A program made the translations under genes and the position numbers. Positions 5,966 through 29,014 of a DNA stretch of 64,000 nt are shown here, in pieces (position 1 is the stretch's first letter; each line of letters starts with the position of its first letter). The notes beneath the pieces were generated by a model. It was not told the DNA's origin, searched no databases, and worked only from the letters and a program-made list of their open reading frames with translations. The stretch lies in assembly GCA_030446715.1 (NCBI GenBank), contig JAUJMU010000007.1, forward strand, positions 1 through 64,000, in the 5' to 3' direction. This DNA comes from Cytophagales bacterium. GTDB lineage: Bacteria > Bacteroidota > Bacteroidia > Cytophagales > 172606-1.

Positions 5966-7552
5966 ATGGAGATGCCCCGGCTACGGCAAACCTTCGCGGT
6001 TGTCCTCGTACTACTCGTCGCCCTGACCGCCTGCTCCGGCCGGCGGGACCGCGAAAGGGCGTCCCCCACCACGGCGTTGTCCGATTCGGCCCAGGTCCAC
6101 GATGGCCGGCAACTGGCCGCCCGGCATTGCAGCCGCTGCCACCTGCTGCCCGAACCCGGGTTGCTGGACAAGACCAGCTGGGGGCGGCACGTGCTGCCCG
6201 AAATGGCGTGGTACCTGGGCTTGTACCAGGACCCGCTGCGGGGCTACGTTCCCATGCCGGCGCACGTGTACCGGGAGTTGCAGTACATGGGGACCGTGCC
6301 TCCGGCCCCGGTGGCGTCCGTGGAGGAATACCGGAAGATCATTGACTACTACACGAACCTGGCGCCGGACAGCCCCTCACCCGGGCGGGTAACGCGTCTG
6401 CCGGCAATGCCCCGGCTGGCACAATTCGAAGTTACGAAGGGAAACCCGGAATTTCCGGTGCCGGGCGTCACGCTGGTGAAAACGACGGGCGGCGGATTCT
6501 TCCTGGCCAACGCTTCCGACAGTTCGTTTGCCCATAAAAATGCCGGGGCTACCACCCTGCGGCGGACCCAATTGGCGGGTTACCCCGTGCATCTGTCCGA
6601 GGCGGCAGACGGGTTGCTGGTCACCATGATGGGCAGCTTCACCCCCCTCGACGACAGCACCAGGTCGGTGTGGCAGCTGCGGCAGCGGGGGGGCACGTAC
6701 CAGGCGCAATGGGTGCTGACCGGCCTGAAGCGGCCCGTCTTCTCGGAGGTGGCCGACCTGGACGCCGACGGCCGGCCGGACCTGCTGGTGTGTGAGTTCG
6801 GCAGCAACCTGGGCGGCCTGTCGTGGTTTCGCAGCCAGGGCGACGGCACCTACCAAAAACGCGGCATCACTCCTTTGCCCGGCGCCATCCGCACGGAAAT
6901 ACGCGATTTTGACGGGAACGGATTGCCCGACGTGGCCGTGCTGATGGGGCAGGCCCGCGAAGGAATCTACCTGTACTACAACCGGGGCGACGGGCAGTTC
7001 TCCGAGAAAACCCTGCTATCCTTTCCGCCTACCTACGGCTCCACCGATTTCCGCCTGGTGGACATGGACGGCGACGGGCACGAGGACATTGTGTACGCCA
7101 ACGGCGACCACGCCGACTACCCCGAAAACCCGCCCCGGCTCCGCCCGTACCACGGCATCCGGGTCTACCGGTACGCGGGCAAGGACCGCTACGAAGAAGC
7201 ATACCACTGGCCCATGAACGGCGTGTACCGCCTGGCGGCGGCGGACTTTGACGGGGACGGCGACGCCGACCTGGCGGCCGTGGCCCATTTCGCCGATTAT
7301 TACCAGCAGCCGCAGGAGGGATTCGTGTACCTCCGCAACGAAGGCGGCACGAAGTTCGCCCCGCTTTACCTGGAAGAAAGCAAAGCGGGCCGCTGGCTCA
7401 CCCTCGACGCCGGCGACCTGGACGGGGACGGCGACCCTGACCTGGTGCTGGGCGCAGCCCTGAGCGGCATTGACACGGCCCCCCCGGCCGTCCAGGCCCA
7501 CTGGGAGCGGCAGAACCTGAGCTACCTGGTTCTCAAGAACCGGTTGAAGTGA
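5966..7552 (+). CDS. FG-GAP/VCBS-repeat lipoprotein with N-terminal c-type heme motif
   Basis: 528 residues. It is a lipoprotein by its N-terminus (hydrophobic run to LTAC, lipobox Cys23). A single heme-attachment motif CSRCH at residues 55-59 sits in a cytochrome-c-like segment of roughly 100 residues (GRQLAARHCSRCHLLPEPG). The remainder carries FG-GAP/VCBS beta-propeller repeats with calcium-binding-like loops (DLDADGRPD, DFDGNGLPD, DMDGDGHED, DFDGDGDAD, DLDGDGDPD). It is transcribed away from the fucosidase gene and ends in a strong terminator. Heme plus propeller lipoproteins occur beside glycan loci in Bacteroidota. An electron-transfer or substrate-binding role at the cell surface or periplasm is inference only. 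Confidence 0.8.
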   Translation: MEMPRLRQTFAVVLVLLVALTACSGRRDRERASPTTALSDSAQVHDGRQLAARHCSRCHLLPEPGLLDKTSWGRHVLPEMAWYLGLYQDPLRGYVPMPAHVYRELQYMGTVPPAPVASVEEYRKIIDYYTNLAPDSPSPGRVTRLPAMPRLAQFEVTKGNPEFPVPGVTLVKTTGGGFFLANASDSSFAHKNAGATTLRRTQLAGYPVHLSEAADGLLVTMMGSFTPLDDSTRSVWQLRQRGGTYQAQWVLTGLKRPVFSEVADLDADGRPDLLVCEFGSNLGGLSWFRSQGDGTYQKRGITPLPGAIRTEIRDFDGNGLPDVAVLMGQAREGIYLYYNRGDGQFSEKTLLSFPPTYGSTDFRLVDMDGDGHEDIVYANGDHADYPENPPRLRPYHGIRVYRYAGKDRYEEAYHWPMNGVYRLAAADFDGDGDADLAAVAHFADYYQQPQEGFVYLRNEGGTKFAPLYLEESKAGRWLTLDAGDLDGDGDPDLVLGAALSGIDTAPPAVQAHWERQNLSYLVLKNRLK

Positions 7553-7611
7553 GGGGGTTCGATGTGCGATGCCCGAAGGTTTGTATCGCTCATACATTTT
7601 CTCCGTGAACA

Positions 7612-7648
7612 CCGAAGCCCATTCCTGACGGAACGGGCTTCGGCATTT
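7612..7648 (+). terminator. Rho-independent terminator
   Basis: A perfect 9-bp stem CCGAAGCCC/GGGCTTCGG with a 14-base loop is followed by CATTTTT. It follows the FG-GAP lipoprotein gene and separates it from the convergent DUF4397 gene. Confidence 0.85.
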
Positions 7649-7664
7649 TTATCGAACATCCGTA

Positions 7665-8513
7665 TCAATACAACGCCGGGTCGTGCGCGACCACCTGCAC
7701 CCCCAGGCTCCGGCCACTGCTGCCGGCCGGGGAGCTCAAGGCCCCGCGGGCCAGGATGGTGTACGTCCGGCCGTCCGTCAGGCTGGAGGTAGCCGAAAGG
7801 ATGGCCGGCGTAGCCGGATCGGCTCCCGCCGGGCGTACCTCCAACCGGTAGTTGCCGGCCGGTATTTCGGCGAACGGCGCGGCCGTGACGGCGCCGAACC
7901 CCCCGGCGGGCAGGTCCAGGGTGCCCTCTCCCGGGGCCAGTTGCCCGAACGACTTGTTGGCAAACGCGGGCGTGGCCGGCGTGACCGCCCCGGGCTGGTT
8001 TGCGTAGGCGTACACGTCTACGGCGGGGGCGCCGACGCCCAGGTGGACAAAGCGGACTTTCACGTTGCCGCCCGCGGGCGGGGTCAGGTCGTCCTGCAGC
8101 AGGGCTACGCCTACCGGGGCAGAGGCCGAGGCATCGTTGGGGTCGGTATTGGCGATGAGGGCCGTGTAGTAGCCGTAACCCTCCAGGGCGAGTTCCGCCC
8201 GCAGGGCGTCGGCCTCCGCCTCGGCCAGCCGGAGCCGGACGGGGCGCTGCCCGGCGGTAGGATTGGTGGCGGCCGTGCCGCCGAATGCCAGGCTGGCCTT
8301 CCGGTTGTTGCTGCCGTATACGACCACGTCACTGGTATAGACCTCTACGTTTTCGCCTACCGAGGGCGCCGCGTGCACAAACAGCATCCGGGCCGTTGCC
8401 GGCGCCACCCGGGTCGTATCTTCTTCCCGGCAGCCGGAAAGCAACAGGCCCGCGCCTGACAGCACGGAAAGGAGGTATTTCTGGTATCGCTTCATGACTT
8501 TCCTCGATTTCAT
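7665..8513 (-). CDS. DUF4397 domain lipoprotein
   Basis: 282 residues with a lipoprotein signal (LLSVLSGAGLLLSGC, lipobox Cys). Two related beta-rich segments follow (ARMLFVHAAPSVGENVEVY and VKVRFVHLGVGAPAVDVYA), with EIPAGNYRLEVRPAG near the end: the pattern of DUF4397 domains. The gene starts 6 bases after the susD stop and is the last of the leftward susC-susD operon, so it probably encodes a surface glycan-binding or accessory lipoprotein of the uptake complex. The family function is not established. ATG codons at 8513 and 8495 are both possible starts. Confidence 0.8.
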   Translation of the reverse strand: MKSRKVMKRYQKYLLSVLSGAGLLLSGCREEDTTRVAPATARMLFVHAAPSVGENVEVYTSDVVVYGSNNRKASLAFGGTAATNPTAGQRPVRLRLAEAEADALRAELALEGYGYYTALIANTDPNDASASAPVGVALLQDDLTPPAGGNVKVRFVHLGVGAPAVDVYAYANQPGAVTPATPAFANKSFGQLAPGEGTLDLPAGGFGAVTAAPFAEIPAGNYRLEVRPAGADPATPAILSATSSLTDGRTYTILARGALSSPAGSSGRSLGVQVVAHDPALY

Positions 8514-8519
8514 GTTTAC

Positions 8520-10093
8520 TCACAGACCCTGGTTTAGTTCTCTTTCCCGCAGCGGCAGGGGCCATTGCAGCGAGGGATCATTGTGCGGAATCGCGCCGGG
8601 ACCCCGGTCGCCGTTCGGAACGGGCAGTTGCAGCGCCTGCAGGTAGTGCAGGCGGTCTCCTTCGAAGGCCATCTCTTTCCAGCGTTCCTGGTGGATCAGG
8701 TCGGCCGTAACGGCGCCGGCGGCGAGGGGCGTATAAGGTTCACCGGCGGCTTGTTGGTTCCAGGCCCGGGCCCGGACCACGTTCAGGTCGGCGGCAGCCC
8801 CGGCCGCGTCGCCCCGGTTCAGCCGGATGATGGCCCGGGTCAGGTACATTTCGGGCAGCCGCAGCAGGGGAACGGCACCTATCCGCCACGACTCCTGCGG
8901 CCCGCGGTAGTACTTATTGATGAAGTACTGGCGGCGCGGCAGGGCCGTAATGGTGGGGTCGGTTCCCGGGACGTACTGGTACAACTGCGTAAACCGCCGG
9001 TCGTTGAGGGCCGACGGGGTGGCGTCGAGTCCTGGGGAGTAAGCCAGCCTACCTGCGTGAGCATGTGGTTGCTGATGGCCAGGGTACGGTCCGTGGGACG
9101 GGCCGACGCCCCGCCACCGCCGTTGCCGGGAATGGTGTTGTTGGAACTGGCGACCTGGTAGTTGACCATGGCAAACCGGCGGGGCACTTTCCAGTTGGAG
9201 GTGGAGCCGCCCAGGCCGTTGCGGGCCGGGGTGTTGCCCATCGAGTACGACCAGATCACCTCTTTACCGCCGCCTTCCACCCCTTGTTCCAGGCTCAATC
9301 GGCGCTTCCGAAAAGGTCGTACCGGCCGCCGTTCTGCTCGATCACGAACGTGGCTGCCTCTTCAGCCGCCTCGAAGTCGCCCATCTGGAAGTGCACCCAG
9401 GCCAGCAGGGCGGCCGCGGCAAGCTTGTTGGCCGCCCGGTTCCCACCGTGTCGGCGGGCAGCAGGTCCACGGCACGGGTAAGGTCATCCACAATGGCGTC
9501 GTACACCTCCCGGGTAGTGCCCGCCGGGGCGTTGGCGTCGGCCAGCCCCGTAACCGTCTCCAGCCGCAGGGCAGTACCCGGCTCTCGTTGCGGCGCCGGG
9601 CTGGTAGGGCGGCGCAAACAGCACCAGCAGCCAGTAGTTGTAGCCGCGGAGAAAGCGCAGTTCCCCTTCCATGCGGGGCAACTGCTGGCGTCCACAGGTT
9701 GTTGAGGGCCCCCGACCGGATCAGTTGAATCCAGTGTTGGTGCTGGCAATGGAACCGTATGACGGCGTGAAGGCGGAATTGAGAATACCGTTGTCAATGG
9801 CGTTGCTCCGGTCGTAGAGTTCCCGCACGTCCTGGATGTTGCCGCCCAGCGTGAGAAACCGGGACTCGTCGCCGGCCGCGGCGGCGTACACCACGTGCGC
9901 ATCGAAGTTGGACTGGTTGCCCCGGAACCGGTAAGGGCGTAATAGGCGCCGTACGGCCTTTCCGGGTCAACCACCGTCTGGATGGGCGGCTGCGGCGGCG
10001 GAACTGCTGCTCGAAAAAATTCTCGTCGTTGCAGCCCGCCGTGAGGCACGCCAGCAGGAGCAAAAGGAACGGGAGGGTATGGGAGGTTTTCAT
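8520..10093 (-). pseudogene. susD: SusD/RagB-type outer-membrane lipoprotein, several frameshifts
   Basis: The ATG at 10093 opens a lipoprotein signal (MKTSHTLPFLLLLLACLTAG with lipobox Cys) and NDENFFEQQF, a typical SusD start. The chain then changes frame repeatedly. Segments recognisable in successive frames are PPPQPPIQTVVDPERPYGAY, RGNQSNFDAHVVYAAAAG, MEGELRFLRGYNYWLLVLF (SusD alpha-helical core) and RLPEMYLTRAIIRLNRGDAA with HQERWKEMAFEGDRLHYLQA (SusD C-terminal part). At two junctions one missing C or G repairs the frame (CCC to CC after EQQF; GGG to GG after the ALTG segment). The role would be glycan capture at the lid of SusC. Clustered single-base losses suggest a poorly resolved assembly patch. 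Confidence 0.8.
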
Positions 10094-18999: not shown

Positions 19000-20321
19000 T
19001 CAGACAGCCCGCTTTTTCTGATCAGCGGGAGTTTTGGCAGTAAGGTGTTTTTGGAGCTTCTCCATGTCCTGGCTTACCTTCTTTTGAACTACCTTGGCAT
19101 AAATCTGGGTAGTCTTGATATTCTTGTGACCCAGCATACTACTTACTGTTTCCAGTGGTACACCGTTGGTAAGGGTGACAGTCGTAGCAAAAGTATGGCG
19201 GGCTACATGGGTAGTAAGTGTTTTAGCGATACCGCACAGGTCGGCAATCTCCTTCAGGTAGGCGTTCATCTTCTGGTTGGATGACACAGGAAAGAGGCAG
19301 CCCTTACTGACGGCCTCCGGATGGTCTTTGTATTTTTCCAGTAGTGCCGTAGCAGGAGACAGCAAAGGAATGTTAGAAGCGGTTTTGGTTTTGGTACGGT
19401 CAGTAAAAACCCAGGATTTACCATCTACACCCCGCCCGATCTGGTTAGAACTTAGTTTCTCCACATCGGCGTACGCAAGACCCGTGTAGCAGCAAAACAG
19501 GAAAATGTCCCGCACCTGGCTTAGCCGGTTGGTCGTAAATGTTTTCTCCTGCATCAAGTGTATTCTTCCTCAGTGAGGTGGTCCCGCCTGGTTTCTTTCA
19601 GCGTGCATTTGAACTTTACAAAAGGATCTTTGTCCAGCCACTCGTTGATTAAGGCCAAGTGGACAATCTTACGGAGATTGGTGATATACTTTATAGCCGT
19701 GTTGTGGGCACAACTACGAACAGTTTTAAAGTAAAATTCTAAATTGGAGATAAACTTGTGGTTGAGTTCCGACAAATACATATCATTCTTACCGTACTGA
19801 TGCTTCATAAACGATTGTACTAGCTTCTGAGAAGTTTCGAATCGTTTGTAGGTACCCAAGGCGTAGTCTTTCCCTATCTGCGCCTGCATCTGACGATTAT
19901 GGTAGTCAAACACCTCCAGCAAAGTGCGTTGCTTGCCGGTTTTTCCCAGATAAGTATTCCTGATCAACTTTACCGTCAGTACGTCGGGCTGGTTCCTCCG
20001 CAAATCCAGATAAATTTCATTAAGGCGGTTCTTGATTGCAGTCAGTTGAACATTGATAGTACGGGCGTCTTCCTTGTTTCCCTTCACACTTCCGGCGGCG
20101 ACATTCCAGCGGTCGGCATCAATCTTAAAGCTGGCAGCAATCTCGGCTCTTTTGCCATTAAGGGTAATGCGGGCAGAGATGTATCCTTCGTTCTTGTCTG
20201 AGCGTACGTCCCGGCGAAGCCAGAAGTTGAACGAGAATGAGTGTGTTATTTGGCCGACAAGTGAAATCAGGTGAACAGGGTATATTACAAGATACACAAA
20301 AGACACCTCAAACACCAGCAA
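19000..20321 (-). pseudogene. int: Tyrosine recombinase (integrase) of Bacteroidota mobile elements, frameshifted
   Basis: Two overlapping frames. The N-terminal part (19554-20321) has the Bacteroides-type arm and core-binding domains (FNFWLRRDVRSDKNEGYISA, LLEVFDYHNRQM, NTAIKYITNLRKIVHLALIN). The C-terminal part (19000-19557) is the catalytic domain, with FLFCCYTGLAYADVEKL, THVARHTFATTVTLT (HxxR), MLGHKNIKTTQIYAKV and the Tyr nucleophile. One missing base near 19,555 separates them. Box I has Ala where most tyrosine recombinases have Arg; IntDOT of CTnDOT also lacks that Arg. It probably drove integration and excision of the conjugative element. The intended start is uncertain; 20321 is the only upstream ATG. 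Confidence 0.85.
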
Positions 20322-20769: not shown

Positions 20770-22623
20770 CTAAGCTGGCTTTAGCCTCCCCCTGATAATC
20801 GCCTTCGTCTCCATAACAATCCTTTGAAAATTAAGCTCTGCATCTCCCTCTTCGCTGATGTTCGGAATTGCCCCGCTTCTGTAGTTGTGTTTTGCGAAAT
20901 GTACATTGAAGTTAGGACCCTCCGTTTCCACAGTAGTCCCCATAAACTGCCCTACTTCAAGTTGCATTAACTCCTGAGGGTGAACCAGGCTCCGCTCCTG
21001 GAGAGAATAAGATACGGAAGTACCCTGAGTGCCGGAATATGACCTTCCATCCAGTCCCCAGCTGAAAGACTCCGGTTTGCTGTCCGATCTGCCTTCGCTA
21101 CGCACCAGCTGCTCCTTACGGCCAAACAGCCGGCTCACGTACTCGGCAGTGGGCAGGGAAGCTACCCGGCCGAATAACTGGTTATTTAGGTTGGAAGTAA
21201 TGGCTTCTGATTCATTCTGGCCGTATTCTTTTTTCATCTGCGAAAAGTCCTGGGCCATGTAAATGGTAGCGACTTTGTTGGAACGGGCTGTTGCGGGGAT
21301 CTGGTCCAGTTTGGGAATAAACAGGGTCGGGCCCTCGTCCAGCAGAATGAAGCTGTGCCGCTTTCCCTGTTGGTTCATCTGCTTGGTGGCAACGGCTATA
21401 AGGCAGGCAATAACTGGGGCAAAGGTGTCTGAGAGCGCAGGGCTGCTGCCAATACATAGCACCTTAGGGGAGAGGGGATGATTGATGTCCAGATCAAATT
21501 CATCTCCCGAAAGCACGTAGCATATTTCAGGGCTGTTGATTCTGGCCAGGGCCACCTGGAGGCTGGAAATCATGCCGGCTATCTGACCGGAAGCCTTAAG
21601 ATCAACGGCCGTAACGATGCTGCGGATCATGGAGGCACATTCATAATCTTCTCGGAGTAACTCCAGTAGCGATTCGTGATCTTCTCCCACCAGCAGGTTT
21701 ACTACGTGCGGCAGGGTACAGTAACCGGGATGATGCTTTTTCAGGTACCAGATCGTGGCAGTGAGCAGTGCCTGAGCGGAACGAATCCAGAAGTCAGGTT
21801 TTTGGATGCTTTCAGGGATGAGGTTATTGATAATCGCCAGGGCGTACTCGGAAGCATGGGCGGCAGTTGGAATGTAGCGGGGATTAAGCGGATTCACCCG
21901 GTGGGTCTTTTCCAGGTCTTCAAAATTGACAACCCAGAAACCCACTCCGCTGCTTGCCCTGGCATACTGCTCATAAGCGAAGTTAGTCAGGGTAGGGAAT
22001 TTGAAGTCATAGATGATGCCGCAGTACCCCTTCTGTGCTGCTTGGGCAATGATGGGTTCGGCCACCGAATAGCTCTTGCCTGATCCGGCTCCCCCAACTA
22101 CCAGAACACCCCGAAAAGGACTTACAATGTTGACCCAGCTGCCATCTTTCCCCTTCAGGTGAAAGGAGTACTCGTTTTCCTGCTTTCGCCTGTCGTTGCT
22201 GATGGGACTTTCCCGACCGGATCGGGACCGCAGTCTCTTTCCCAGCGGGTAGCCGCTCAGTACCGTTCCTACGAGGGAGACAGGATAGAACGCCTGATAA
22301 TACGGGTTGCGGTCAATGGTGTAGAGCAGGCAGGCACTTGATGAGTAAAGCAGCAGCCAAAGCCAGAGGGGTAGCCTGGTCTTTGATTTCTCTGAACGCC
22401 TCTCCTCAGCAAGAGTTCGGCCGGCCAAGGCAAAACATAGCGGGTATAAAACAAGAAAAAGAATGCGAAAGAACTTGCCTCCCCTGGTGAAAAACGTAAG
22501 CGCCGAAAGATACCAAAGGGTATGAGCAGGTTCCATCGTCAGGAAGTAATACTCGGCGCCCAGCACAAACAGTAGTCCGCCAGCAATCAGGTAAAGCGTA
22601 GCCGCTTGATTGGTTCCATTCAT
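20770..22623 (-). CDS. mobC: Type IV coupling protein (MobC/VirD4-TraG family)
   Basis: 617 residues. Several membrane helices lie in the first 125 residues (AATLYLIAGGLLFVLGAEYY, ILFLVLYPLCFALAG, LWLWLLLYSSSACLLYTID). Then come Walker A GGAGSGKS at 177-184 and a Walker B region in HSFILLDEGPTLFIPKLDQI, followed by TIYMAQDFSQM. In the known system it docks the relaxase-DNA complex to the transfer channel and supplies ATP-driven pumping. Its position next to the relaxase and mobA genes matches Bacteroides conjugative transposons. The frame is intact. Confidence 0.9.
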   Translation of the reverse strand: MNGTNQAATLYLIAGGLLFVLGAEYYFLTMEPAHTLWYLSALTFFTRGGKFFRILFLVLYPLCFALAGRTLAEERRSEKSKTRLPLWLWLLLYSSSACLLYTIDRNPYYQAFYPVSLVGTVLSGYPLGKRLRSRSGRESPISNDRRKQENEYSFHLKGKDGSWVNIVSPFRGVLVVGGAGSGKSYSVAEPIIAQAAQKGYCGIIYDFKFPTLTNFAYEQYARASSGVGFWVVNFEDLEKTHRVNPLNPRYIPTAAHASEYALAIINNLIPESIQKPDFWIRSAQALLTATIWYLKKHHPGYCTLPHVVNLLVGEDHESLLELLREDYECASMIRSIVTAVDLKASGQIAGMISSLQVALARINSPEICYVLSGDEFDLDINHPLSPKVLCIGSSPALSDTFAPVIACLIAVATKQMNQQGKRHSFILLDEGPTLFIPKLDQIPATARSNKVATIYMAQDFSQMKKEYGQNESEAITSNLNNQLFGRVASLPTAEYVSRLFGRKEQLVRSEGRSDSKPESFSWGLDGRSYSGTQGTSVSYSLQERSLVHPQELMQLEVGQFMGTTVETEGPNFNVHFAKHNYRSGAIPNISEEGDAELNFQRIVMETKAIIRGRLKPA

Positions 22624-22657: not shown

Positions 22658-23871
22658 TTAAGTTTGAGGCTCCATCCCCCGGCTTTGTCCCCTTCGCTTC
22701 TTTTGCCGGGGAAATGCCTCCCAGGAAGTGTCAATACCATGAACCGTTGCCGTGCTGGCAATGGACCGCATCAGATCGCTGAAGACGCTCAGTGAGCGGC
22801 TCAAGCTACCAGTATCCGGACTCCGCATCTCCTGGGCAGAGACTTTGTCAATAGAGTGACCTCTTCCTGCTTTAGCCTCAACCCCTCCGCTTACCCCCTT
22901 ACCTGCTTGCAAGTCTTCCGGGAGCCGGCTTGTGAGCGGTACAAGTGCTGGTTTCCCTCTCTGAGCCGGCTCGTGCATTACCACACGCTGCTTTTTGGTG
23001 ACCGGCTGAAGCCTTTAGCATGGCGTACGGGTCGGGGGCTGAAGGCCTTTTGACAGTGCGTTTTCCAGTACCGACAGGTTACGGTAGAACTTCCAGTTAA
23101 ACTGCCTTTCCCTGGCCAGACCTGCCACCCGATCCACATTGAGATATGACGGGTCTAGGCCTCGAGTCCGGATGAATTTCTCCAGCCGCTGCCTCAACTC
23201 TGCTTGTTCCTTCTGGTCCTCTTTGGCAAAGTATGTCTGCTTTCCATAGGAGAACATGCGGGTAAAATCCCGTGCGTTTTGCTGCTGCCAGTCCTGAACG
23301 GAAAAAGTCTCTTTGCTGCTTGTAGGGGAAAGGAGAATTGCCGGCTGCAATCAAGGCGCGCCACGATTACGTGCACGTGGGTCTGCTCCCCCGCTTTCCG
23401 CTGCCCTCCCCTGGCAAGCCCTTCCTGAACGGCCTGGTCGTTTCCTTTATGCACCCGCCCGTGGTGAAAAGTGGCAAACCAGACGAGCTCCTCCCCCTTG
23501 GGTGTTTTTCCATCCGGCAGCTTAAAACCTTCCGCGTAATTCTCCATGACCCTTCGCGTGTAGTGCTGCAACCGCTCCGAGCCGCTCCCGCCGGAACCAC
23601 TGCCGTTCTCAGGTGCCGCAACTCCGCTTCGGAGGGCTGATGACCAGGAATAAAACTTGGCGGCCGTGGCCCGTACGCCCTTCGCGTGCCCGTCAATGCT
23701 GGCGGCTACCTCCCCGGCTGGAACGTTGGTCCGGGACTGGTTGAAATACAAGGCGCGCTCCCCGGACCCTTTTGCTTCGTGGTCCAGGTATTTGAGCAGT
23801 TTGGAGCAGCTCCCTTTGTTGTGGTAGACTGCCCGGCCGCTCGTGAACGGCTTTAAGATTTTGGTGATCAT
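22658..23871 (-). pseudogene. mobB: Relaxase (MobB/BmgA-like, relaxase/mobilisation nuclease domain), frameshifted
   Basis: The start at 23871 gives MITKILKPFTSGRAVYHNKG, the usual relaxase N-terminus. The histidine triad region follows (EELVWFATFHHGRVHKGNDQ, GEQTHVHVIVARLD). Near 23,347 the frame changes to SPTSSKETFSVQDWQQQNAR, then FTRMFSYGKQT and RTRGLDPSYLNVDRV. It stops at 23,015 after LSKGLQP. A third frame continues (QPVTKKQRVVMHEPAQRGKP) with a hydrophilic C-terminus to 22658. The second break is flanked by two near-identical 13-14 base repeats (AAAGGCTTCAGCC). The normal role is to nick oriT and pilot the strand into the recipient. Confidence 0.8.
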
Positions 23872-23907
23872 GGTGAAAAAAGACAAATGGTTATCGCAGA
23901 AGTCCCT

Positions 23908-24451
23908 TTAAAAACGCTCCTTCAGGCGCTGCTCGAACTGCGCCATCTCTGACTCAAACCGCTGCTTGTTTTGTGCTGCTACTTCTTTCACCAATCCTTC
24001 CTCCTGGCCGGAGAGGTAATACAAAGTCGTCAGGCTGATGTCCTGAATGGTTTTGATCTTGAACAGCAGTTGGTGGAGTTGGGCAAAATACCCGCTCAGC
24101 CCTTCCACTGCTCCGGCTACCGCTGCAGCCGCTCATGCAGGGCGTGTACTTCCTGCAGGAGGGGGACGAATACTGCGCTTCCTGAGTTTTGAGCACGCCC
24201 ACCACCTGGTTGCGGAGCCGGTGTACTTCTTTGGGTACGTCCTCCACTCGGTTGGCTGTCACAGGGTTTAGCTTGTATCGAATGAAGTACCAAAGGGCAT
24301 TTTCGGTGAAGTCTTTCAGGGATACATCCAGCGTACCGGCATACGTTTTGGCCTGGTCCCTGAGGCCCGTACTGATTCTTAAAGTAGTGGTGGCTTCTTC
24401 CGTCGCAAAGGCGGCTACCGGAGTGCTAAGCGCAGGTCGGATAAGAGGCAT
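23908..24451 (-). pseudogene. mobA: MobA-like relaxosome accessory protein, frameshifted
   Basis: The start at 24451 gives MPLIRPALSTPVAAFATEEA, then a ribbon-helix-helix-like region (TTTLRISTGLRDQAKTYAGT, LKDFTENALWYFIRY) and VPKEVHRLRNQVVGVLKTQE. The frame then breaks at least twice near 24,110-24,180 before the C-terminal helices (FAQLHQLLFKIKTIQDISLT and FESEMAQFEQRLKERF). Small DNA-binding proteins of this kind sit just 5' of mobB in Bacteroides elements and bind oriT. The likely oriT region is directly upstream. Confidence 0.65.
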
Positions 24452-24459
24452 AATGAGAA

Positions 24460-24604
24460 GTAGATTGCCCCAAAATCTACAAAGGAGCATTGAAAGTCAG
24501 CACGTTACCCGTCCGAATCTACTCCTTATGGTACTAAATGGCTCAAAATGAAGTATTTTGAGAATCTACTGTCACTCCTTCTTGCTACGTTTTACTACGT
24601 TTTA
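24460..24604. promoter_or_regulatory. oriT: Repeat-rich region upstream of mobA, candidate oriT
   Basis: Between mobA and the XRE gene are: an inverted repeat GTAGATT/AATCTAC (24460-24480); two direct copies of GAATCTACT (24515-24523 and 24562-24570); a perfect hairpin TCAAAAT-GAAGT-ATTTTGA (24543-24561) touching the second copy; and a tandem pair of CTACGTTTTA (24585-24604). Iterons plus hairpins just upstream of a mob operon are what an origin of transfer looks like. The nic site cannot be placed. The rest of the gap to 24742 shows nothing recognisable. Confidence 0.5.
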
Positions 24605-24742: not shown

Positions 24743-25132
24743 CTACCGGTTCAGCGCCTTTTCCAGCAGTTCAATTATTTTGTCCTTATCGGCCAGCCGT
24801 TTCTCTTTCTCCTCTAGTTGCGCTTGCTTCCCCCTGAGCTCCACTTGCAGCAATTCGATGCCCGGCTCGCTTACCACGGTAGGGGCAGGCGACTGATAAG
24901 CTACCGTTTGGGATTTGAACATTTCCGGATCGTCCCTGAGCAGCCAGTCCAGGTTCACGTCCGTAAACGTTCGGGCAATGGCTTCAATGATCTCCCAGCC
25001 CGGTTTGGATCTTCCGCTGGCAATGCTGTAGAAGTTATCGGCCCGCTCATAGCCCAGGGCTTTGGCAAACTGGGGAATGGACAGGTCTTTGGCTTTGGCC
25101 AGGGCTTTGATTTTCTCACCTACAGGTACCAT
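24743..25132 (-). CDS. XRE-family helix-turn-helix regulator with C-terminal coiled coil
   Basis: 129 residues. The N-terminal helix-turn-helix covers about residues 5-65 (GEKIKALAKAKDLSIPQFAK, ALGYERADNFYSIASGRSKP, with DVNLDWLLRDD closing the domain in the usual XRE way). The last 35 residues form a heptad-rich helix (LLQVELRGKQAQLEEKEKRL), probably for dimerisation. It resembles phage- or element-type repressors. Two inverted repeats immediately upstream are candidate operators for autoregulation. Confidence 0.85.
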   Translation of the reverse strand: MVPVGEKIKALAKAKDLSIPQFAKALGYERADNFYSIASGRSKPGWEIIEAIARTFTDVNLDWLLRDDPEMFKSQTVAYQSPAPTVVSEPGIELLQVELRGKQAQLEEKEKRLADKDKIIELLEKALNR

Positions 25133-25320: not shown

Positions 25321-25893
25321 CTACCGCCCCGCCTCGAACAGGGGCAATACCTTTGCGGGTTCTTTCTCCTCGGCCGGCTTCTTTTTCTGACGCGCATGGC
25401 CGCTCAGGTGCCCCCGTAGCTGTTGCTCAGTCGGGTAACTTTTGCCGCATTCGGGACAAGCGTAATGCTCAGGCACCTCCACTGTTTCCTCCCCGGTTTC
25501 GAGCTTCTCTGCGAACAGGTCCGAGAAGTACCACACCGAGCCCGAGAGCATGGCACTGATCAACGTCGAGGCCACTAGTGATTCTACTGAATTGTTCCAG
25601 TGCTGGTAATAGAGCAGATTGCCGGCAAACGAGGCCAGGGCGTAGAGCTGAGCCGCCCGCTTCTTGCCGTTGAGGATAAACATCAGGATGGCTGCTTCAA
25701 TGGCCGAAGCACACAGGAAAGCGTGCAGCCAGTTGAAGCCGGTAAACTGCCAGCCGCCCACGTCAAAAGACAGGTTCATGCGGCTTACCGCTTTGAACAG
25801 CCAGGCCGTGTGCAGGATCTGGGAAACAAGGACGCACAATATGGCCGTAAAGATGAAGGATTCCGAACGCAGGAACCGGATGATATTTCTCAT
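25321..25893 (-). CDS. Membrane protein with C-terminal C2H2 zinc-finger motif
   Basis: 190 residues, not a family I can name. About four membrane helices lie between residues 12 and 125 (FIFTAILCVLVSQILHTAWL, FNWLHAFLCASAIEAAILMF, LYALASFAGNLLYYQ, LVASTLISAMLSGSVWYF). An acidic linker (EKLETGEETVEVPEHY) leads to a canonical C2H2 finger, CPECGKSYPTEQQLRGHLSG plus H (Cys146, Cys149, His162, His166; spacing 2-12-3), and a basic tail. The finger would face the cytoplasm if helices are even in number. It is last in a leftward group with the genes to 27590. A role in tethering DNA or protein at the membrane is speculation. Confidence 0.75.
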   Translation of the reverse strand: MRNIIRFLRSESFIFTAILCVLVSQILHTAWLFKAVSRMNLSFDVGGWQFTGFNWLHAFLCASAIEAAILMFILNGKKRAAQLYALASFAGNLLYYQHWNNSVESLVASTLISAMLSGSVWYFSDLFAEKLETGEETVEVPEHYACPECGKSYPTEQQLRGHLSGHARQKKKPAEEKEPAKVLPLFEAGR

Positions 25894-25946: not shown

Positions 25947-26252
25947 CTACGGCAGGTAACTGATGATTGCCACGTCGGGCTGTCGGGCGGGCCGCTGCAA
26001 AGGGTACACGTGGATGTGTTCCCCTTCCAGGCGGCCCCCGAAGAGCGGAACGCCACTCTCGGAAAGCAGCCCGTTGAGGGATTGCAACAGGCTCTTGAGG
26101 GAGTCAAACTTAGAGGAAGTGCTCATCTCGTTGATCAGGTTTACGGCCGCTACATGGGCATGGAGCCGCTGGCAAACCGAAACCTCCTCTTTGGCAAGCG
26201 GCTCGGGCTTTACGTGCAGTTGGTAGCGGGCTACGGGTTTCTCAGGTTCCAT
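25947..26252 (-). CDS. Hypothetical protein of the nuclease cassette
   Basis: 101 residues, soluble, no family recognised. It begins MEPEKPVARYQLHVKPEPLA, has a helical centre (SSKFDSLKSLLQSLNGLLSE) and ends with EGEHIHVYPLQRP. The start codon overlaps the 3' end of the upstream nuclease-like gene by 22 bases, which indicates translational coupling and a shared job. Confidence 0.6.
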   Translation of the reverse strand: MEPEKPVARYQLHVKPEPLAKEEVSVCQRLHAHVAAVNLINEMSTSSKFDSLKSLLQSLNGLLSESGVPLFGGRLEGEHIHVYPLQRPARQPDVAIISYLP

Positions 26253-26869
26253 ATCTGGTCAAACAGGTTTAGTTGTCCGATCTTGAGCAGGATAAAACGA
26301 TACCTGGCCCGGCCCCACTCAGCAAAGCTGCTCCGGGCGGTGGTCTCCAGCACGAACACTTTCTGCACTTTCTTGGAAATGCCGATCAGCACCATCTTGC
26401 GGGCGGCTACGCTGTCGGCGTAGAAGGCCAGTTGCCGGTCGTATTCGAACCGGAGGGCGTTCCCTTCGAACTCGGCCTGGGTGCGGGCATTGGTGGTTTT
26501 TAGATCAATCACCGTGTCCGTGCCCAGCACGTCGAGTTTGCTTTTGCAGGCTATCCCGGTATAAAATTCCGTCCAGTACACTTCGTGCTCCCGTTTGCCT
26601 TCCAGCAGCCGCGCACAGCAGGGGTACTGGTGCAGGGAACGGATGCATTTTTGGAGCAAGACAGAATCCACGTCCGGGTAGCGGCTCAGGTCGAATCTGT
26701 GGGCTTCCAGTACCGCCTCGTGCAGGGCCTGCCCGAAACGAAGGGCGGCCCTCGGCTTGTAGTGCGGCGTTCCCATGATCAGGTGCCGGGCAAGGTCCAG
26801 GTCGCTGTTGGAGATGCGCTTGACCGAGTAGTAAGACGACTCTTCCGGCGCAGAAATGAGGGTTTGCAT
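26231..26869 (-). CDS. PD-(D/E)XK nuclease-superfamily protein (RecE/YqaJ-like exonuclease)
   Basis: 212 residues from the ATG at 26869; a longer open frame to 27082 has no good start context. Landmarks are SVKRISNSDLDLARH, RAALRFGQALHEAVLEAHRF (the conserved G-x-A-x-H helix of these exonucleases), CKSKLDVLGTDTVIDLKTTN (Asp ... Asp-Leu-Lys catalytic core) and FEYDRQLAFYADSV (Q-x3-Y helix). This is the layout of PDDEXK exonucleases of the phage RecE/DUF3799 type. It sits between an unknown abundant-cargo protein (26952-27590) and the overlapping small gene, and probably belongs to an element-borne recombination or DNA-processing set. Confidence 0.75.
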   Translation of the reverse strand: MQTLISAPEESSYYSVKRISNSDLDLARHLIMGTPHYKPRAALRFGQALHEAVLEAHRFDLSRYPDVDSVLLQKCIRSLHQYPCCARLLEGKREHEVYWTEFYTGIACKSKLDVLGTDTVIDLKTTNARTQAEFEGNALRFEYDRQLAFYADSVAARKMVLIGISKKVQKVFVLETTARSSFAEWGRARYRFILLKIGQLNLFDQIWNLRNP

Positions 26870-26951
26870 AGGAAAAAAAGGGATGAAGTACGGCGGGGAA
26901 AATAGTGGTGAGAAAGGAGAGCAGGCACCCACCTGCTCCCCTCCTTTTCCG

Positions 26952-27590
26952 TTAAGCGGCGGCTTCTCCGGGTTCGCTGCCCGGCACCAGGGCGGGCAGG
27001 TGGTAGTGGTGGTACGCCTCGAGGAGGCAGGTATCCGAAAGCGTTTCGACGCGGAAGATTTTGTGGCTTGCGGCAAAGTCATGCAGGCCTTTCACCGTTT
27101 CCGGACCCGCTACTTCGTCCACCTCAAACCCGGCAATGTGGTAGATGATGGCGGGCTTCTGCTTCTCGTTCTTCTTGGCCACGAACCGGGCCGTAATCTT
27201 CACGTCCGAGAGGGTCACGTCTTCGTAGAACAGGTCCCGGGCCAGCTTCTCCAGGTTGTCGCGGCTGTAGCCGTGGAACAGGATGGCAGACACGCAATTC
27301 TTCTCGTCCACGAAGAAGAGTTCCACCCACTTCTTGCGGCCCATTTGCAGAATGTCGTCCTCGAAGAACCGCCAAGCCATGGGAATGAACGAAAGGCTGT
27401 CTCGGGTGGGATTACCCCCGTTGACGTTGAAGTTACCGGCTTTGGCATCGGCCCGGTACTGCCTGGGCTGGCCTTCCAGGTAGCGAAATTTGCCCGTAAC
27501 GGCCAGAGGGTTACCGCCGGCAATGGCGGGCAGTGCAGGAGTTGCCTCGGTTGCTGCTCCATTGGATGAGACTTGGGTTTGGGTAGTCAT
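26952..27590 (-). CDS. Hypothetical protein, candidate DNA-binding partner of the nuclease
   Basis: 212 residues from the ATG at 27590, preceded by a purine-poor AT-rich leader; a start at 27629 is less likely. It has a disordered start (TQTQVSSNGAATEATPALPA), a compact middle (SFIPMAWRFFEDDILQMGRK, WVELFFVDEKNCVSAILFHG) and KITARFVAKKNEKQKPAIIY, and ends in an Ala/Gly/Pro tail. No family is recognised. Its position first in the operon before a RecE-like nuclease makes a single-strand-annealing or binding role conceivable, but nothing in the sequence proves it. A copy of the GAGTAGTA box lies 126 bases upstream. Confidence 0.6.
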   Translation of the reverse strand: MTTQTQVSSNGAATEATPALPAIAGGNPLAVTGKFRYLEGQPRQYRADAKAGNFNVNGGNPTRDSLSFIPMAWRFFEDDILQMGRKKWVELFFVDEKNCVSAILFHGYSRDNLEKLARDLFYEDVTLSDVKITARFVAKKNEKQKPAIIYHIAGFEVDEVAGPETVKGLHDFAASHKIFRVETLSDTCLLEAYHHYHLPALVPGSEPGEAAA

Positions 27591-28179
27591 GGTTATAAAA
27601 GGTTTGGTGAATTTTCGAAGGGAGAGCAACCAATGTGTAAAATACTAGTAATCACCTGACATTTAGAATGGCCATTATATTGTTCAATATGGCACTAAAC
27701 GTATTTAATTAGGCTTACTACTCGTTATTGCTTAGATAAATATACGAATATATTACATAATATCAAAGCCTTAAGGCAGAAAATTACGTCCAAAATGGTA
27801 AATATTTTACAATTTCGCCAACGTATATGTAGGATTTAAGTATTGCGTTATACAACGATAGAAAGGGGAAGGTGCGGAGTACACTGTCGGGCAAAAAGGC
27901 GGAGTAAGGAGGGAGTACAGTTGGACGGAGCCTTTTTGAGCGCACTGGCCGGGAGCGGTGTAAGCAGCACCTGTGCGGTGGACGCGGGATAGGATGTGTC
28001 CCGGAAAGAGAAGAGCCGGTAGGGGAACGGCATTCCGGGAACATAGGCCACAAAGAGCGCGAAATCGGGAAGGCGGGGTCCGGGATCGCCCGGTACAAAG
28101 AATCATTTATTCCATTTACAGGCCTCCGCCCTACCATCGGCGGGGGGCCGGCGGCTTGCGGAACGGGAGGCTATCCCCT
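27591..28179. other. Non-coding stretch between the nuclease operon and radC
   Basis: 589 bases without a convincing gene. The part to about 27,800 is AT-rich and contains TAACGAGTAGTA on the minus strand (27716-27727), resembling the box of the glycan locus; it is probably the promoter region of the leftward operon. The part from 27,860 is GC-rich. Minus-strand frames of up to 117 codons there have odd composition and no recognisable motif. Confidence 0.4.
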
Positions 28180-28677
28180 TTACAGGGTGCCTTCGTCGGC
28201 CATCGAGTAGTAGCCCTCGGTTGAGAGGATCAGATGGTCGAGGATGGGCAGTTCGAGCCACTGACCGGCTTGCTTGAGCTTGCGGGTCAGGTCCATGTCT
28301 GCGTGGCTGGGCGTGAGGTTGCCACTCGGATGGTTGTGCGCTAAGATTATGGCACAGGCACGACATTTAAGGGCGGTAACGAAGATGAGCCTGGGATCGG
28401 CTACCGTGCCGGCAACGCCCCCGGTGGAGATGAGCGTGGAGCCCATGACCCGGTTGCTCCGGTCGAGCATCAGGATGCGGAACTGTTCCAGCAGGCAGAT
28501 TTTGCTCTGGTCCCAGCTCTCCAGCAGGATGCGGTAAGCTGATTCGGAGCAGGTAACTCTTGGACGTTGAGCGGCAGGGACCCGGTTGCGGTACACCAAT
28601 TCGATTTCGGCGATGGTGGAAGCGGTTTTGCGTTTCATGGCAGTAAGTTGTTTAGGTGAAACATTCTTTTTTGCCAT
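28180..28677 (-). CDS. radC: RadC-family JAB/MPN domain protein
   Basis: 165 residues from the ATG at 28677 (another start two codons upstream is possible). The JAB/MPN metal-binding motif is complete: LAHNHPSGNLTPSHADMDLT (E/H-x-H-x10-D pattern) followed by LDHLILSTEGYYSMADEGTL. The chromosomal RadC N-terminal HhH region is missing, as is usual for the short RadC copies on mobile elements. Despite the name, a repair function is not established; a role in element DNA processing is likelier. Confidence 0.85.
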   Translation of the reverse strand: MAKKNVSPKQLTAMKRKTASTIAEIELVYRNRVPAAQRPRVTCSESAYRILLESWDQSKICLLEQFRILMLDRSNRVMGSTLISTGGVAGTVADPRLIFVTALKCRACAIILAHNHPSGNLTPSHADMDLTRKLKQAGQWLELPILDHLILSTEGYYSMADEGTL

Positions 28678-29014
28678 GCACAAAGGAGACGGGACGGACC
28701 CAAGGCAAACAGGAAACTGAATAAACCAGCCAGGGTAAGGGAGCAGGCTTTATGCGGTAGTCTTTTGCCGGAGTCCGAACCGGTCTCCTAACTTTGCTAA
28801 AAATGAATGGATTCAAATAGAGAGGGATGACAGCCTTGGGGAAGCTTTATGCATTAAAAAGAAGCCTGCTAGATTATAAATGTTGTATGTAAAACCGGCA
28901 AAAAGCTGGTAATCTGATTAAATTGTAGATCAGCAAGTAGCGCTGTGGTATATTTTATGCCACCTCTTGTCTGCCAATAACCTTGCTTAAAGGCCCGACT
29001 CCCCGGAACCGTTT
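28678..29014. other. Intergenic stretch between radC and the IS982 remnant
   Basis: About 340 bases, AT-rich towards the right. I see no gene, terminator or repeat in it beyond the promoter region of radC that must lie at its left end. Confidence 0.4.

Follow-up and report, generated by a model that had tools for sequence, protein, structure and literature searches.

SpdB2 of the Streptomyces plasmid pSVH1 is an integral membrane protein that binds DNA non-specifically, and excerpts of its description report dsDNA binding, oligomerisation and interaction with TraB, and tie the protein to plasmid spreading and stability (PMC4170104). The protein analysed here is encoded within a 64,000-nucleotide stretch of DNA, i.e., the window. 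Like SpdB2, this window protein is an element-encoded integral membrane protein; however, the two are likened by description, the DNA binding being that of SpdB2, and SpdB2 has no finger, unlike the window protein. A second counterpart is p16.7 of phage phi29, a phage membrane protein which, according to an excerpt of the literature, anchors phage DNA at the membrane (PMC4974454). The window protein differs from it in having four predicted helices and a finger. p16.7 possesses one N-terminal membrane helix and a homeodomain-like DNA-binding part. A third is PdpSau, a prophage-borne protein that, in the excerpted account, halts phage DNA replication with membrane damage and consists of a single N-terminal helix and an OB-like fold (PMC10127798). 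AbiP and PdpSau resemble the window protein in combining a membrane anchor with a nucleic-acid-binding part; however, they have no finger, and the one helix and OB-like domain by which they are defined contrast with the four predicted helices and finger of the window protein.

Bacterial Cys/His fingers are also represented by Ros, which is described in an excerpt as having a 9-residue spacer, three histidines and a larger fold (PMC9779718). The window protein has a 12-residue spacer, two histidines and a classical fold, so that its spacing is not of the Ros type, as an earlier note on this DNA had stated, and identity with Ros/MucR is ruled out. Ros is soluble. The plant single-finger QALGGH proteins such as SUPERMAN share the spacing and the LxGH helix of the family finger, and SUPERMAN (1njq) is among its structural neighbours (Z 3.6, rmsd 4.7, 35 aligned); these proteins are, however, soluble eukaryotic transcription factors, unlike the window protein. 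A full-text search of open-licence literature found no description of a membrane-tethered classical finger, and one figure legend, in excerpts of the actinobacterial ICE literature, names a C2H2-like protein.

The window protein and its element

The earlier note had described a membrane protein with a C2H2 finger at 25321-25893 and named no strand. The open reading frame lies on the minus strand (the plus strand contains stops in the same frame), and the four predicted ligands, Cys146, Cys149, His162 and His166, proved exactly right. PF13912 (zf-C2H2_6) matches residues 143-166 with 30.0 bits against a curated cut-off of 25. AlphaFold2, run on the single sequence with no alignment, models the four helices at the spans given in Table 1 with low confidence, and the finger as beta-beta-alpha with a pLDDT of ~75-85 in the whole protein and ~80-90 when modelled alone, which bears out the finger fold. 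The finger superposes on 6ml4 with an rmsd of 0.4 over 27 columns (Foldseek E 1.8). Among the structural neighbours listed, most are C2H2, CCHC or UBZ-type fingers, with Z up to 3.7 and an rmsd of 2.5 over 30 residues, and the closest solved chains by sequence are designed or mammalian zinc fingers. A search of the whole model against the PDB gave no match at E ≤ 0.001, a result that is uninformative on the fold of the low-confidence membrane part.

Two parts of the earlier description stand in modified form. First, the expected four or so membrane helices appear in the low-confidence AlphaFold2 model, whereas hydropathy calls three in the window copy. A hydropathy scan of 10 members gave four helices in 6 and three in the window protein, G751, G683 and G733, in which the third helix drops below the cut-off. 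Second, the tail described as basic is so directly after the finger (ARQKKK...), but the 25 residues ahead of the finger are acidic (net −6), and the net charge from this lead-in through the C-terminus is −3. In the four-helix members, K/R residues are mostly commoner in the N-terminal, second-loop and C-terminal segments than in loops 1 and 3, with G141 as the exception. Because of this bias, the positive-inside rule would place the finger in the cytoplasm with an N-in/C-in arrangement, and the topology check advised in the earlier note thus predicts a cytoplasmic finger.

Table 1. Features of the window around and within the finger gene
Feature	Position	Strand	Match or remark
Tyrosine integrase, two frames (19554-20321, 19000-19557)	19000-20321	minus	
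T4SS coupling protein (TraG/MobC type)	20770-22623	minus	PF02534, 6e-27
DUF5712 protein, frame broken in window	23194-23886	minus	
BfmA/BtgA-type mobilization protein	23954-24490	minus	NF041200, 28.4 over 24
HTH protein, downstream	24743-25132	minus	HTH_31 and RstR-like, both below cut-off
Membrane-anchored C2H2 zinc-finger protein gene, 190 aa, ATG start	25321-25893	minus	
C-terminal tail, residues 167-190	25324-25395	minus	Basic close to finger
Classical C2H2 finger, residues 143-166, C-x2-C-x12-H-x3-H	25396-25467	minus	PF13912, beta-beta-alpha model
Short acidic linker, residues 134-142	25468-25494	minus	
Membrane helix 4, residues 103-133	25495-25587	minus	Runs into cytoplasm (predicted)
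Membrane helix 3, residues 77-98	25600-25665	minus	Asn92 in NLLYY
Membrane helix 2, residues 52-75	25669-25740	minus	Glu66
Membrane helix 1, residues 11-37	25783-25863	minus	His28 common to most members
101-aa ORF, overlaps nuclease gene	25947-26252	minus	No confident family
DUF3799 PD-(D/E)XK RecE-like nuclease	26231-27082	minus	PF12684, 53 bits, 4.7e-14
225-aa ORF preceding nuclease	26952-27629	minus	No family found
RadC-family gene	28180-28683	minus	3.8e-38; 89% DNA identity to sister element, contig C6

The window locus is an integrative mobilizable or conjugative element. The integrase part at 19554-20321 is matched by PF13102 and PF17293, the second half of the BfmA/BtgA-type gene lies in a shifted frame (23908-24108), and the DUF3799 gene also has a weak exodeoxyribonuclease VIII match. 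The DUF5712 protein is presumably the relaxase. The earlier description of the finger gene as ending an operon with the RecE-like nuclease is right only in part: the DUF3799 gene and the 101-aa ORF do lie directly upstream on the same strand, but same-strand genes go on downstream (HTH, BfmA-type, DUF5712, coupling protein, integrase). In a near-identical sequence, L013, a 405-aa DUF5712 ORF is intact and the finger gene is broken; the indels differ between the two assemblies, possibly through sequencing errors or recent decay.

The genome of the window contains three PF13912 proteins, the two others being soluble and lying in sister elements on contigs C8 and C6. In these elements (L032, L033), a soluble C2H2 protein, FPCQLCGKTFATQKALSGHQKGH, sits, by eye, between DUF3799-like and BfmA-like ORFs; several genes are frame-broken, and the 225-aa ORF is also present, with frameshifts. 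The C6 element resembles the window in its RadC and coupling-protein DNA. Since a soluble C2H2 protein occupies the same slot, the finger, not the membrane part, is what the slot has in common. The 0.9-Mb genome G121, from the same order, encodes a 56-aa C2H2 protein (PF00096, 33.3 bits; L036:9327-9497, minus) that adjoins, by eye, a coupling-protein-like ORF. Such fingers are met repeatedly next to transfer genes, whether or not a membrane part is attached. A 61-aa classical C2H2 protein at L035:9486-9671 (minus) lies in chromosomal surroundings close to a dnaX-like gene, where no transfer genes were noticed.

A family of membrane proteins and its finger

The homologues in other Bacteroidota that the earlier note had called for were found by profile searches, giving 12 distinct members: the window protein, G751, G683, G733, G716, G748, G583, G040, G024, G141, G191 and G1091. 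G069 was not counted separately, its DNA being nearly the same as that of the window (L013, 98-99.6% over aligned pieces). A single-sequence search brought up relatives in 5 of 194 order genomes, including the window's own. A four-row membrane-part profile, applied to 390 genomes of the order, had hits in 15 at E ≤ 0.01; it also hit 4 of 8 genomes sampled from the taxonomic family and 2 in a phylum sample of 395, namely the window's genome and a spurious one. An 11-row profile matched 6 of 395 genomes in a class sample, i.e., the window's own, four that were dropped, and G1091 (E 0.0016), a new true member from outside the order. From the 15-genome list, G095 was dropped after its locus was read, and G691 and G630 for long frames and partial matches (loci unread); among the class-sample matches, G910 was dropped after reading, and G1087, G893 and G808 for internal stops (loci unread). 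Other rejected candidates were G384 (E 6e-4), an 804-aa protein unlike the family, L014, which by eye is UvrA and whose zinc motif shares EHYACPECG, and L004/L005, by eye response regulators.

Identity to the window protein falls from 52% (G751) to 15% (G141) among the 10 others aligned; G1091 was left out of this alignment and added to a later one of 12 rows. Position 66 is acidic in 12 of 12 rows of the later alignment, and Asn92 is invariant in the 11-row alignment. The hydrophobic helices are kept across the family, which rules out a purely soluble finger protein. Among the scans made, the membrane domain has no family in Pfam, NCBIfam or PADLOC, and PHROGs gave no confident family for the window protein or for any of the four proteins scanned. 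Neither 72,556 plasmids nor 50,697 phage records contain a match to the window protein, G1091 likewise has none in the plasmid or phage collections, G583 none in the plasmid collection and G024 none in the phage collection. In viral contigs no relative was confirmed, although this counts for little because the method depends on near-exact peptide words.

An acidic residue in helix 2 and an Asn in helix 3 prompted a remote comparison with DUF2637 (PF10935), which we take to be linked to SpdB2. Ten DUF2637 sequences were gathered from actinobacterial plasmids and a phage. With 11 family members, hhalign gave a weak match (P = 0.014, probability 3.1%) whose score was reached by 1 of 100 block shuffles. 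With G1091 included, the match was again weak and was post hoc (P = 0.0032, probability 9.9%, score 23.5 vs. 10.9 ± 2.3, 0 of 200 shuffles), since the comparison was picked in hindsight and the better score came only once G1091 had been added. The local match covers 33 columns and is collinear over 110 at low stringency. DUF2637 resembles the family in the acidic residue of helix 2, the Asn of helix 3 and, going by this weak match, collinear helices; it is also plasmid- and phage-borne, and one of its proteins, L058, has a long C-terminal part. However, L058, the DUF2637 protein scanned, has no zinc finger, unlike the family. The PF10935 model (cut-off 22.8) matched L058 as a positive control, and did not match the window protein at E ≤ 0.1, G040, G024, G191 and seven others at E ≤ 1, or G1091 at E ≤ 10; SpdB of pIJ101 has no DUF2637 or other Pfam match. 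Membership in DUF2637 was considered and is not claimed, as no member matches the Pfam model. At the level of sequence, the weak resemblance of the membrane domain to actinobacterial DUF2637 is suggestive. A doubtful, speculative proposal is that a single ancient four-helix module is common to elements of Bacteroidota and Actinomycetota and has acquired different cytoplasmic ends that bind nucleic acid, in Bacteroidota a eukaryote-type C2H2 finger.

A finger (C2H2 or C2HC) lies in the same frame in 10 of the 12 members. The pattern C-x2-C-x12-H-x3-H is found in five (window, G716, G748, G583, G1091), C-x2-C-x13-H-x4-H in G683 and G733, and C-x2-C-x15-H-x4-H in G040, whereas the finger of G024 is C2HC and that of G141 is readable as C2HC or C2H2. 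The frame of G191 is split by an IS21 insertion (L031, about 7000-9814), beyond which lies a C2HC finger-like remnant resembling that of its congener G141. The earlier note had counted homologues with the membrane part and no Cys/His residues against its claim; G751, 1 of the 12, is such a homologue, with no finger seen in three downstream frames, and the others are not. In the scans made, only the window protein, G716, G748 and G583 pass the PF13912 cut-off, the other members, including G1091, falling below it or giving no match. Of 328 ORFs (at least 100 aa, from 17 sequences), 13 have a loose C2-x11-15-H-(H/C) pattern in the last 120 residues; 10 of these belong to the family, one is the soluble sister protein and 2 are unrelated. 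In a separate comparison, 8 of 13 fingers have the LxGH helix. G040 also has a second, truncated finger-bearing copy (L037:9130-9429, minus), which is C2HC like that of G024. The rarity of such fingers, as previously noted, holds: 3 of the 194 order genomes and 2 of the 395 in the phylum sample have a PF13912 match at E ≤ 1e-4, and none of 14 controls does, the window's genome being among both the order and the phylum hits.

The linkers vary greatly among members, that of G141 containing a long coiled coil. The proteins of G716, G748 and G583 end at the last zinc ligand and have basic linkers (+3 to +4), while G024 is basic on both sides of the finger. Selection was estimated by simple Nei-Gojobori counts on 23-27 codons, with synonymous sites saturated in several comparisons. 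For G716-G748, dN/dS is 0.05 in the membrane part, 0.07 in the finger and 0.61 in the linker; across the three pairs of G716, G748 and G583, dN is 0.08-0.14 in the finger and 0.34-0.48 in the linker; and for G683-G733, dN is 0.13 in the finger, 0.15 in the membrane part and 0.81 in the tail. The membrane part and the finger are under purifying selection, with the linker drifting.

A scanned element hallmark is present at 6 of the 12 loci (window, G683, G583, G040, G024 and G733). G683 has a tyrosine integrase directly upstream, RadC, and a metal-ATPase-like ORF about 7 kb away; G583 has an integrase within its stretch; G040 has a packaging-ATPase-like match (1e-8); G024 has a head maturation protease (2e-39) and HNH; and G733 has a holin by scan and an integrase directly upstream by eye. 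By eye, gene order and a mercury-type cluster are common to G716, G748 and G583, the neighbours of G141 are phage-like early genes together with the DNA methyltransferase phrog_116, and G191 adjoins IS21. G1091 is near an N6-methyltransferase and a glycosyltransferase, and G751 has no element hallmark, its neighbours being of housekeeping type by eye. The earlier placement in conjugative elements thus fits the transfer genes of the window, but relatives are also found in prophages and in a mercury-type integrative element. The surroundings of G040 (L029:29-6698) look like a small phage, rich in short membrane proteins and equipped with a small packaging ATPase, and may represent a tailless membrane-containing type. 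Large methyltransferase proteins lie near two family members (L052:13515-16739 and L075:5182-7905), the one in L052 being joined to a strawberry-notch-type helicase.

Proposed role and rival explanations

Quite possibly, though by no means surely, the protein is an adaptor that the element supplies to keep its DNA, or a partner bound to DNA, at the inner membrane. We arrive at this adaptor because of the predicted cytoplasmic finger, the fast-evolving arm, the conserved membrane body and the location on integrative elements and prophages. A polytopic inner-membrane body of four helices would carry a flexible cytoplasmic arm ending in one classical zinc finger; the finger would capture element DNA or a DNA-bound partner (the adjacent nuclease, recombination or mobilization proteins), and excised, replicating or transferring element DNA would thereby be kept at the membrane. 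This working mode would be like that of SpdB2 of Streptomyces plasmids or phi29 p16.7, and the protein is assigned to neither. The presence of the membrane-plus-finger build on several unrelated mobile elements and prophages suggests a conserved way to hold DNA or a partner protein. The earlier note had suggested a tether of element DNA to the membrane: the membrane-plus-finger build is real, conserved and element-linked, and the tether itself is the best reading that we can offer.

We infer DNA as the ligand, as well as the step served (replication, maintenance or transfer). DNA is our best guess because the neighbours include nucleases, integrases and mobilization genes, because a soluble C2H2 protein fills the same slot in the sister elements, and because element-encoded DNA-holding membrane proteins are known (SpdB2, p16.7). 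DNA binding by a lone classical finger usually depends on basic flanks, and against a DNA tether stand the acidic lead-in (−6) and net negative tail of the window protein, as well as the three members that end at the last ligand. The charge evidence on DNA binding is mixed. Also against it, the element types are so different that a common replication or transfer step is not obvious.

Rather unlikely, though to be taken seriously, is an exclusion or abortive-infection protein, whose membrane part would be the effector (by depolarisation or blocked entry) protecting the resident element, and whose cytoplasmic finger would sense incoming phage or plasmid DNA or a phage protein. Polar residues are conserved inside the helices, which points to a membrane body that is more than an anchor and leaves room for this role; His28, the acidic residue 66 and Asn92 would fit an active membrane part, and a small accessory gene scattered over very different elements and prophages is also in keeping with it. 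AbiP and PdpSau, in the excerpted account, likewise pair a membrane anchor with a nucleic-acid-binding part (PMC10127798), but as one helix plus an OB-like fold rather than four helices plus a finger. In addition, the window gene lies within a nuclease and mobilization cluster, not in a separate defence island. Of ten proteins given to PADLOC, namely 8 from the family together with the sister protein and the 101-aa ORF, 7 had no match at E ≤ 1, two had only chance-level matches (E 0.017, 0.019), and G141 matched only via its coiled coil.

The finger may instead bind protein, not DNA, with the window protein recruiting an element or host protein to the membrane or acting as a membrane-bound regulator, which we consider unlikely. 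Ubiquitin- or peptide-binding fingers appear among the structural neighbours as readily as DNA-binding ones, the window protein has a net acidic tail, the chain stops at the last His in three members, and the linkers are highly variable, with the long coiled coil of G141. However, the LxGH helix of 8 of 13 fingers resembles that of the plant QALGGH fingers, which bind DNA, and the neighbouring genes are DNA-processing. It is very improbable that the protein is a metal-responsive membrane protein with the finger as a zinc or mercury sensor: G716, G748 and G583 do lie in what looks by eye like a mercury-resistance cluster, but inspection by eye showed no metal genes around the other nine, except the metal-ATPase-like ORF of G683, and classical C2H2 sites are mostly structural. 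A chance motif or an assembly artefact in one gene is scarcely credible, for although the window and the near-identical L013 are frameshifted at different genes, 10 divergent members from separate genomes, with identities as low as 15-25%, have kept the finger, under purifying selection.

Fingers of the classical eukaryotic type are a great rarity in the phylum, and this family provides a small bacterial C2H2 example for which selection on finger, linker and membrane parts can be told apart. The family also makes it possible to test by what means Bacteroidota integrative elements and prophages keep their DNA, or a partner, at the membrane, and whether a membrane module for this purpose is common to distant phyla. 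If the shared module were true, it would define a general class of element-encoded DNA membrane anchors, spanning conjugative, mobilizable and phage elements.
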